Source: an uncultured Pelagibacteraceae bacterium
GTDB lineage: Bacteria > Pseudomonadota > Alphaproteobacteria > Pelagibacterales > Pelagibacteraceae
DNA length: 52,840 bases
Assembly (NCBI GenBank): GCA_902629215.1
Contig: CACOQC010000004.1
Span: forward strand, 1 to 52,840
Reading direction: 5' to 3'
In this document: one piece after another, positions 49,262 to 52,150 of the stretch
Layout: the number at the start of each line of letters is the position of its first letter
Position numbering within the stretch: position 1 is the stretch's first letter
The notes under the pieces: model-generated
The model's input: only the letters and a program-made list of their open reading frames with translations
What the model was told of the DNA's origin: nothing
Database searches by the model: none
Translations under genes and position numbers: made by a program

Positions 49262-50400
49262 TGAAAAAAGTTGGTATTATTGGTGCAGGTATCTCAGGAC
49301 TATACATTGCTAATTTATTTAAAAGAAATTCAAATTATCAAATTACAGTTTTTGAAAAAAATCATGTGATTGATTTAGATGAAGGTTATGGAATTCAGTT
49401 ATCAGTTAATAGCGTAAAGCTTTTGAATCAAATTGGATTTGACAAATTTAAAGATGATAAAAAATTCAATCCAAATAAAATAAATTTCTATTCTATTAAA
49501 AGCTCTAATAAGATATGCGATTTGGATATCTCAGAATTTAATTCACAAGAATGTAAGTATACTACTTTGAAAAGGTCTGATCTAGTCAATTTTTTAAAGG
49601 TGGGTTTAGAGCAGTCAATTAAAACCAATCATAATATTTCGAAGATAGATCAAGAAAATAAAAAGATTAAACTTAATTTTGAAAACAATGAAATTTTTGA
49701 ATGTGATTATTTGATAATTTCAGATGGAGTTTTTTCAAAAAGCAAAAGTCTTATCTCAAATAATAAAACTCAACCAAGTTTCAATAAAATGTTGGCTTTA
49801 AGAGGTACAATACCTAATTCTCAAAAAATTGATTGTAATAATATTTCGTTGTTTTTAGGTCCTGATTTTCATCAGGTAATTTATCCTGTAAATCCTAGCG
49901 GGGATTTAAATTTTATAGCCATATTAAAATATGACCTTTCAATTAATGAACAAAAAAACCATTTGTTATTCAATGAGAATAATTTTATCAAAAAAATTTT
50001 AGATGATATTCCATTAGAGATGAGAGAATTTATAAATGAAATTAAGCAATTAAAGATATTTCCAGTATTTATCAGTAATAATTTTTTTAAATTAAAAAAT
50101 GATAATGTTCATTTTATAGGCGATGCTCTTTTTGCCTTTCCTCCATCATTTGCCCAGGGTGCATCACAGTCTATAGAGGGCGCTTATGAATTATTTAAAA
50201 GTATAGAAAACAAAACGGAAAATAGTTTTTTTAAAAATAGAGTAAGTAAAATTAGAATGGTTAATAACAGATCAAAATTTAATCAATTTGCATTCCATTT
50301 ATCTAATCCTTTAACTACATTTTTAAGAAACATTTTTTTGAAAAAATTGGTTAAGAATAAAAAGTTTTTAGAAAGTTATCTTGGTAAAATTTATAGATAA
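49261..50400 (+). CDS. FAD-dependent monooxygenase, UbiH/PHBH-like
   Basis: A 379-residue class A flavoprotein hydroxylase. The N-terminal Rossmann motif [13 protein letters not shown] is at residues 5-17. The middle [16 protein letters not shown] corresponds to the DG motif. Near residue 285 [27 protein letters not shown] is the GD-x6-P motif that binds the FAD ribityl chain. The family hydroxylates aromatic rings, including ubiquinone precursors (UbiH, UbiF, UbiM) and salicylate-like compounds. A role in ubiquinone synthesis is possible but not shown. Its TAATG start overlaps mutY, and its end overlaps ccrM by 10 bases. Confidence 0.88.
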
Positions 50401-51470
50401 TTTTTATCAACAAGGAATTTTTGTCTTAAATTATCTATTGGCACAAAAGAACTACCTAATTTGCAATGCCAATAAGTCCATCCGTTACAGCTTTCGGCAC
50501 CTAAAATTGTAGCTGCTACTTTATGAATAGATCCCTCAGTTTGAGCATGCTTGATACTGCCATCAACCATTATTTTTGCACTAATTTTCCTCTTATTATC
50601 AAAAATAGTGGTACCTGGTTTAATAATTCCTAATTCAACTAATGATCCAAAAGGTATTCTTGGTTTAGATCTATTGTTCTGAAGAGTATCTAAATAATCA
50701 TCTTCTATAGGTATTGTTTTTTTTACTCTTTGTTCTGCAGCTTTAAAATAGGTTTTTTCTCGTTCAATTCCGTAATAATTTCTCCCCAATTTTTTAGCAA
50801 CTGTTGCTGTAGTTCCAGATCCTAAAAAAGGATCTAAAACTAAATCATCTTTATTCGAGGTTGCTAATAAAATTCTGTGAAGTAAAGCCTCTGGTTTTTG
50901 TGTAGAATGTACTTTTTTACCATTCTTTTTAAGCCTTTCTGAGCCATTACAAATCGGTAATTCCCAATTAGATCTCATTTGAAGATCATCATTCAAACAT
51001 TTTAAAGATTGGTAGTTGAATGTATATTTTGATTTTTCAGTTTTTGACGCCCAAATTAATGTCTCATGAGCATTTGTAAAACGTGTGCCTCTAAAATTTG
51101 GCATGGGATTTTTTTTATTCCAAATGACATCATTTAAAATCCAAAAACCTAAATTTTGAATTGCCGTACCAACTCTGAAAATATTGTGATAACTACCGAT
51201 TACCCAAATAGCTCCATCTTTTTTTAAAATTCTTTTACATTGAGTTAACCATGAATAAGTAAAGTCATCATACTTTTTAAAATTTTCAAATTGGTCCCAT
51301 TTGTCATTTACTGCATTAACCTTAGATCTGTCTGGTCTTGTTAATTCACTTTTTAATTGTAGGTTGTAGGGAGGATCAGCAAAAATTAAATCAAAAGTAT
51401 CATCAGGGATTTTTTTCAGTTCCTTTAAACTATCTCCATTAATTAATTTATTTTTCAAATCTAAATTCAT
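50391..51470 (-). CDS. ccrM: Cell-cycle-type adenine DNA methyltransferase CcrM (GANTC)
   Basis: CcrM methylates the adenine of GANTC and couples transcription to replication in alphaproteobacteria. The 359-residue beta-class enzyme has catalytic [10 protein letters not shown] (Asp32-Tyr35) and the SAM motif [19 protein letters not shown] near residue 213. The extra C-terminal domain that defines CcrM against plain restriction methylases is also present, with [14 protein letters not shown] and [24 protein letters not shown] specificity is inferred from this resemblance. No restriction enzyme is adjacent, so it is a solitary methylase. A well-spaced promoter with a GANTC site lies directly upstream. 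Confidence 0.95.
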
Positions 51471-51483
51471 TTTTTAAAAATAA

Positions 51484-51512
51484 ATTAGACTCCAAAAAGA
51501 TTAATGGGTCAA
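51484..51512 (-). promoter_or_regulatory. Candidate ccrM promoter with overlapping GANTC site
   Basis: On the minus strand TTGACC (51512-51507) and TCTAAT (51489-51484) are separated by exactly 17 bases, a good sigma-70-type pair. The -10 element overlaps GAGTC (51492-51488), a CcrM target. A second target, GAATC, lies upstream at 51536-51532. The predicted start would leave a leader of only about seven bases before ATG 51470. Confidence 0.6.
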
Positions 51513-51573
51513 CCTACGATTGAATTATTTAGATTCGATTTGTGTTAGATTTTTTTGAGATAACTAGATATTG

Positions 51574-51590
51574 TGTTTCTACGTGAAACC
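51574..51590. other. parS-like imperfect palindrome
   Basis: TGTTTC, then T, then ACGTGAAAC-C forms a 17-base imperfect palindrome that equals the 16-base ParB site consensus TGTTTCACGTGAAACA with one extra base in the left half and a final C instead of A. It starts at the last base of the rnhB stop codon and lies in the 119-base gap before ccrM. Insertion within a ParB site normally destroys spacing, so function is doubtful. Confidence 0.25.
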
Positions 51591-52150
51591 TATTTAATTT
51601 TATTAATTGGTGAAAAAGTTTTCCTATGATGAGATGTAACACCTAAATTTTTAATAGCTTTCAAATGTTCTTTAGTTCCATAACCACAGTTTTTATCCCA
51701 ATAATATCCTCCAAATTTCTTTCCAAGATTAGATATCATTTTATCACGTGTAACTTTTGCAATTATAGAAGCTGCTGAAATTGACGGTATTTTTTGATCA
51801 CCTTTAATAACACAAATAAAATTATAATTCTTAATATTTGGGGATTTATTTCCATCAATTAGAACTAGGGAGGGTTTTTTTTTTAATTTTATAATTGCTC
51901 TTTTCATAGCAAGCATACTTGCATGAAATATATTTATTTTTTCAATTTCTTTGACTGAAGCTTTACCTATAGCCCATATAGAGTTTTTTTTTATATATTT
52001 TGCTAAAGTTTTTCGTCTAGATTTTGATAGTTTTTTTGAGTCACTTAATATTTTTTTGTCTATTGATTTATTCAATATTACCGCAGCAGCATATACAGGT
52101 CCTATCAAGCTACCTCTTCCAACTTCATCAACTCCAGCAACAATTTTCAT
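51590..52150 (-). CDS. rnhB: Ribonuclease HII
   Basis: RNase HII removes single ribonucleotides and RNA primers from DNA. The 186-residue protein starts with AGVDEVGRGSLIGPVYAAAVIL, carrying the catalytic Asp8-Glu9 and the G-R-G loop. SAASIIAKVTRDKMI and the C-terminal GYGTKEHLKAIKNLGVTSHHRKTF, with the usual Gly-Tyr-x-T-x-x-H motif, follow. The start shares a base with the stop of the glycosylase-like gene, so the two DNA-repair genes form an operon. Confidence 0.96.
   Translation of the reverse strand: MKIVAGVDEVGRGSLIGPVYAAAVILNKSIDKKILSDSKKLSKSRRKTLAKYIKKNSIWAIGKASVKEIEKINIFHASMLAMKRAIIKLKKKPSLVLIDGNKSPNIKNYNFICVIKGDQKIPSISAASIIAKVTRDKMISNLGKKFGGYYWDKNCGYGTKEHLKAIKNLGVTSHHRKTFSPINKIK

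Follow-up and report, generated by a model that had tools for sequence, protein, structure and literature searches.

CcrM target sites in the core promoter of ccrM: a possible self-methylation switch in SAR11 and other Alphaproteobacteria

The promoter of ccrM carries target sites of the CcrM methyltransferase itself (5′-GANTC) within its core. The sites, their fixed geometry with respect to the −35 and −10 hexamers, their conservation and the near-exclusive use of the two-site form at ccrM were observed here, starting from the window, i.e. the whole 52,840-nucleotide stretch of Pelagibacteraceae DNA that was analysed. In the fullest reading, to which we give an even chance, the arrangement is an ancient and nearly ccrM-specific self-methylation switch of the Alphaproteobacteria: two CcrM sites 11 bp (one helical turn) apart in the core promoter, a −10 hexamer starting inside a GANTC, often a further site near −50, and an mRNA without a leader. 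Having no CtrA, SAR11 bacteria would on this reading need nothing but replication and methylation to time CcrM. The sensitivity of the promoter to methylation and the sign of the effect are suggested by published work on relatives.

Results

The ccrM promoter in the window

The ccrM gene (50391..51470, minus strand) is predicted, from its domains and from the matches in relatives, to encode a solitary CcrM-type DNA adenine methyltransferase of 359 amino acids. The Pfam search found the N6_N4 methylase domain (PF01555, 6.7e-69) and the RAMA domain (PF18755, 2.1e-16), the combination that defines the CcrM type. At E ≤ 0.001, ccrM matches were present in 155 of 200 relatives, and among the matches listed the nearest ones came from Pelagibacteraceae, i.e. 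from SAR11. The upstream neighbour, rnhB (51590..52150, minus strand; ribonuclease HII, PF01351), is transcribed in the same direction and is separated from ccrM by 119 bases.

The earlier note had placed a promoter in this gap, and its letters and coordinates proved correct: the −35 hexamer TTGACC (51507..51512, read 51512-51507 on the minus strand) is followed, after 17 bp, by the −10 hexamer TCTAAT (51484..51489, read 51489-51484, minus strand), which ends 13 bases before the ATG at 51470. The two hexamers have 10 matches out of 12, as counted by eye. This promoter was missed by the program's sigma-70 scan, which requires an A at position 2 of the −10 hexamer, where the ccrM promoter has C.

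The −10 hexamer shares its first two bases (TC) with a CcrM site, GAGTC (51488..51492, listed without strand), an overlap that the note had also described. The second GANTC, an upstream GAATC (51532..51536, likewise without strand), which the note put about 45 bases away, is separated from the first by 44 bases. Two GANTC sites in the 119-base gap compare with an expectation of 0.16 from the GANTC density of the window (Poisson p ~0.012), an enrichment that is weak if taken alone; that the sites are more than chance follows from their conservation in relatives and not from this p value. The window has only the −10 member of the core pair that is conserved in relatives. The spacer member, located between −35 and −10, was lost, and in the alignment TAATC (51499..51503, minus strand) stands in the place where most close relatives have GAATC.

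A further element, the TTCAATC box (51518..51524, minus strand), lies 5′ of the −35 hexamer and is nearly invariant among 110 relatives: five of its seven columns have no change and two have one change each. The box and GGTTGA form an imperfect inverted repeat. As a whole, the window (1-52840) avoids GANTC, with 74 sites against 141 expected from shuffled sequences.

Conservation of the core sites in Pelagibacteraceae

The family sample comprised 130 ccrM upstream regions (30, including that of the window, L001, plus 80 plus 20). Since the sample contained duplicate genomes, identical 77-base blocks were removed, which left 108 distinct promoters. TTGAC and GTCTA were found at constant spacing in all 130 regions. 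The −10 GANTC was kept, as GAGTC, at 127 of 130 loci (106/108 distinct promoters), so that the check proposed in the earlier note, conservation in relatives, came out positive for this site. The GANTC in the spacer was present at 124 of 130 loci (102/108 distinct). Both core sites occurred in 100 of the 108 distinct promoters, and none of the 108 was devoid of both. The upstream GAATC did not hold up as the conserved partner: a GANTC was found at its offset at 65 of 130 loci and in only 52 of 108 distinct promoters. The conserved partner is the spacer site, and the window is among the six loci that lack it. Three loci (L021, L070 and L097) have the converse pattern, with the −10 site absent and the spacer site kept.

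The spacer site occurs in two registers. At offset 9 it is GAATC in 75 distinct promoters; one base closer to the −35 hexamer it is GACTC in 17, GAGTC in six, GATTC in three and GAATC in one. The GA and TC of the site are constant while its central base and its register vary, which shows that selection has maintained the CcrM site, GANTC, itself. At the −10 site the central base is also invariant in the family, so at this site alone selection for GANTC and selection for the promoter are inseparable. When changes were inferred on a ccrM gene tree with 110 members, TTGAC (invariant at 110/110 relatives), TCTAAT and AGTCTAAT had none, as compared with a median of 10 changes for third codon positions; the first G of GAGTC had two. 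The start codon follows the −10 hexamer by 12-15 nt at all 110 family loci. In two complete genomes of a different Pelagibacteraceae genus (L181, L182) the promoter is kept as TTGAC-17-TCTATT, both core GANTC sites are absent, and GcrA is present despite their absence.

The sister family and the class

In a sister family, represented by 25 sampled genomes, the −10 GANTC was present as GAATC in all 25 and the spacer GANTC in 21. At 24 of these 25 loci (L131-L150, L166-L170) the start codon lies only 6-7 nt after the −10 hexamer.

The class sample consisted of 75 further ccrM upstream regions from 62 family groups, hand-picked for spread among the best ccrM matches listed. Behind TTGAC, a GANTC was found in the spacer at 42 loci, at the −10 position at 37, at both at 28, and at either at 51 of 75 (51/73 without L181 and L182, which belong to the window's own family). 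Dinucleotide shuffles of the same loci gave ~0.13 loci per position, and no shuffled locus had the two sites together. Over the final 300 bases of the class upstream regions, the distances of GANTC from TTGAC showed peaks at offset 19 (34 of 81 TTGAC) and at offsets 8-9 (29), and antisense TTGAC (n = 18) in these regions had no peaks at those offsets.

The 34 class rows with TTGAC and a GANTC at offset 19 were aligned. Positions 2 and 6 of the −10 hexamer, neither of which was used in selecting the rows, are A (+24) and T (+28) in every one of them. The class −10 hexamer is CANNNT after a 17-bp spacer, and its first base is the C of the GANTC. The −10 site is GACTC or GAATC in these rows, GAGTC in the window's family and GAATC in the sister family. 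An ATG was found 6-8 nt after the −10 hexamer in 14 of the 34 rows. Start codons just after the −10 hexamer point to a leaderless or nearly leaderless ccrM mRNA, as a real promoter at this place would give.

A third GANTC near −50, located 14-16 bases 5′ of TTGAC, was seen in 19 of 37 class rows and, by eye, in 25 of 25 sister-family rows.

At 24 of the 75 class loci GANTC was found at neither position behind TTGAC, and six of these 24 had no GANTC at all within 260 bp. At L232 and L186, visual inspection showed TTAACC, which resembles a CtrA half-box, in the place of TTGAC, with GGACTCAGGATC or TGACTCATTAT after it. At these loci the −35 element may have been replaced by CtrA with the −10 GANTC retained.

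The two-site pattern is found mainly at ccrM

The genomes of the order were searched with TTGAC-N3,4-GANTC-N6,7-GANTCW, the reversed pattern serving as control. The search yielded 86 hits, spread over 85 of the 121 genomes, against two hits for the control. The pattern lay at ccrM in 83 cases: 82 hits were located 16-72 bases 5′ of a ccrM match and one preceded a ccrM cut by the contig end. The remaining three fall inside open reading frames. With the class pattern 41 hits were obtained in 38 of 143 genomes (control, one hit), and 28 of them precede ccrM. Among the 13 class hits elsewhere, one precedes a DivIC gene and one a similar open reading frame, and of the other 11, six are inside open reading frames. 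The two-site form is nearly exclusive to ccrM.

The DivIC case is L340, where the pattern at 1488-1515 precedes the gene of a septum protein (PF04977). In L279 the pattern lies near 1527 before an open reading frame which resembles DivIC by eye and has no Pfam match.

In the window's own genome a one-site pattern had a single hit, at ccrM, against three for the reversed control. Because the control exceeds the hits, the sequence of one genome alone proves nothing. We also looked for a wide SAR11 regulon with TTGAC-N13-16-GANTC and rejected it: in all six genomes the hits stayed below the reversed control (e.g. 11 vs 29 in G012 and 7 vs 37 in G082), which fits the avoidance of GANTC.

Discussion

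A promoter that may sense its own methylation

We interpret the ccrM promoter as a candidate negative feedback element, sensitive to CcrM methylation and on when hemimethylated, an interpretation that we hold with modest confidence. The core-promoter sites would be placed so that CcrM methylates DNA that sigma contacts, at the −10 hexamer and in the spacer. Full methylation would lower promoter activity. Passage of the replication fork would leave the promoter hemimethylated and its activity would rise; newly made CcrM would then remethylate its own promoter and close it, and the loop would serve as a timer, based on feedback, that each passing fork sets going.

The negative-feedback interpretation was chosen in the light of published data. 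In Caulobacter crescentus, transcription of ccrM is reported to take place only from hemimethylated DNA, under the control of CtrA (PMC2217572), and methylation is described as most probably acting on ccrM itself (PMC3973325), which bears out, as reported or inferred in print, the methylation sensitivity that the earlier note had described. The Agrobacterium tumefaciens gcrA promoter, which contains a GANTC cluster, is reported to be less active when methylated, in E. coli too (PMC11514494). Finally, GANTC methylation in SAR11 is reported both in culture and at sea (PMC9516812), in bacteria from which ctrA is reported to be absent (PMC2877005, PMC7987155).

The absence of CtrA agrees with our own search, and with the earlier remark that CtrA boxes are not evident here: none of 61 SAR11 genomes passed the cut-off of the CtrA model, a Rhodobacter-type model that one of 14 controls passed, and weaker OmpR-type matches were present in all 61. 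A point against the interpretation is the C at position 2 of the Pelagibacteraceae −10 hexamer, since A is the base preferred there by sigma-70.

Sequence does not settle whether methylation lowers or raises activity. In C. crescentus, a GANTC between −35 and −10 is reported to go together with activation in mid-cycle (PMC4287350), and mutation of the GANTC of ftsN is reported to cut its activity (PMC3885167); methylation can therefore also activate.

The layout bears on the timing of CcrM in bacteria that have no CtrA, SAR11 among them. With the target of CcrM placed inside the sigma contacts of its promoter, replication would be enough to time the enzyme and further regulators would not be needed; if this is true, SAR11 would represent a minimal fork-to-methylase clock. 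The layout is a concrete, testable element common to much of the class. Methylation control of ccrM and its link to GcrA are already known or predicted. For the two-site core geometry, the overlap with the −10 hexamer, the near-exclusive use at ccrM and the presence in SAR11, no description was found in our searches of the open-licence literature.

Alternative explanations

The main rival is co-activation by GcrA, a sigma-70 partner that senses methylated GANTC. GcrA would activate the methylated ccrM promoter, so that CcrM would promote its own expression, which would fall if methylation were lost; alternatively, the hemimethylated promoter would be the form on which GcrA acts, a mode proposed for ctrA P1. 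We regard this as possible but rather unlikely. The GcrA domain (PF07750) was found in 157 of 200 relatives and in 64 of 75 class genomes, with a model that also matched one archaeal control, Sulfolobus, so that single weak hits need caution. The unusual −10 hexamer would go well with a factor that assists in opening the strands, an argument on GcrA that reportedly goes back to Haakonsen 2015. The mid-cycle activation in C. crescentus (PMC4287350) and the loss of ftsN activity (PMC3885167) fit GcrA as well. A published comparison of 13 orders counts ccrM among the likely core targets of GcrA, with a loss in Caulobacterales (PMC7987155); that search was blind to position, and the layout described here offers a reason for its call.

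The contigs of the window's genome contain no gcrA match, which may reflect an assembly gap, the genome being ~84% complete. Against co-activation, the extended motif YGAKTCK fits only seven of 127 family sites at the −10 and one of 124 in the spacer, and by eye neither window context (GGAGTCT, CGAATCT) fits it. In the class rows it fits eight of 34 −10 sites and 12 of 26 spacer sites. One published species is reported to show no extended YGAKTCK preference (PMC7987155). We also tried to relate the layout to the presence of GcrA and found no association: any site was found in 44 of the 64 genomes that have GcrA and in seven of the 11 that lack it (Fisher p 0.74), a comparison in which the model may miss divergent GcrA. 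The known GcrA-activated promoters of C. crescentus (ftsN, mipZ, ctrA P1) resemble the ccrM promoter in having GANTC at or between the −35 and −10 elements of sigma-70 promoters, and GcrA occurs in most relatives; they differ in that the family sites seldom fit YGAKTCK and the two-site geometry is found mainly at ccrM.

It is improbable that the bases are kept as promoter or as the binding sequence of another factor, with GANTC incidental and its methylation without effect. At 110 of 110 family loci the −10 block reads AGTCTAAT without variation, the central base of the site included, the TTCAATC box is equally conserved, and the genus of L181 and L182 keeps the promoter without GANTC, all of which would be expected if GANTC were incidental. 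Against this stand the constant GA and TC of the spacer site despite a varying central base and register, the −10 site that differs between groups as GAGTC, GAATC or GACTC, and the two-site form occurring mainly at ccrM. Main transcription of ccrM from upstream of or through rnhB is very improbable: rnhB is a co-directional neighbour only 119 bases away on the 5′ side, and a literature search for a start-site map of a SAR11 ccrM found none, but neither TTGAC nor TCTAAT varies, their spacer is fixed at 17 bp, and start codons in the sister family are at leaderless distance.

Comparison with known systems

The methylation-sensing interpretation has a close counterpart in the ccrM promoter of C. 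crescentus: the gene is the same, GANTC sites are present in the promoter region, and transcription from hemimethylated DNA is reported for Caulobacter (PMC2217572, PMC10073500). In contrast, the Caulobacter promoter is described as activated by CtrA, and SAR11 has no CtrA above the cut-off. The Caulobacter-like autoregulation proposed in the earlier note thus stands as far as GANTC sites in the promoter are concerned, whereas the design of the promoter is different. The GANTC sites of Caulobacter ccrM reportedly lie downstream of the core promoter (Stephens 1995).

The A. tumefaciens gcrA promoter, similar in its GANTC cluster and in its response to methylation, belongs to a different gene; it has six sites in 250 bp, and the text available to us describes no fixed core geometry there (PMC11514494). 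In the CfrBI and LlaDII systems, judging by the titles of the papers, the methyltransferase gene is controlled by methylation of its own site or by the methyltransferase itself. As in the CfrBI type, the methyltransferase's own target site is located within the core promoter at ccrM. CfrBI and LlaDII are restriction-modification systems, whereas ccrM here encodes a solitary cell-cycle methyltransferase.

Genomic context of ccrM

Within ~2.2 kb, ccrM is flanked by genes for an HhH-GPD base-excision (mutY-like) protein and an FAD enzyme and by rnhB. The Pfam search revealed no restriction enzyme in this interval, so ccrM is not part of a restriction-modification pair here. The window's genome (G000) comprises 1.06 Mb in 47 contigs. 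Published GANTC methylation data exist for Pelagibacter NP1, in which 99.86% of GANTC is reported to be fully methylated in culture, and for one Pelagibacter metagenome-assembled genome (PMC9516812). A second methyltransferase, encoded on contig C2 of the window's genome (31284-32045), has 46% identity to CcrM across residues 7-252. The distance between ccrM and dnaA, which is merely a proxy for the origin, is ~279 kb of 1343 kb in G012 and ~274 kb of 1438 kb in G082.
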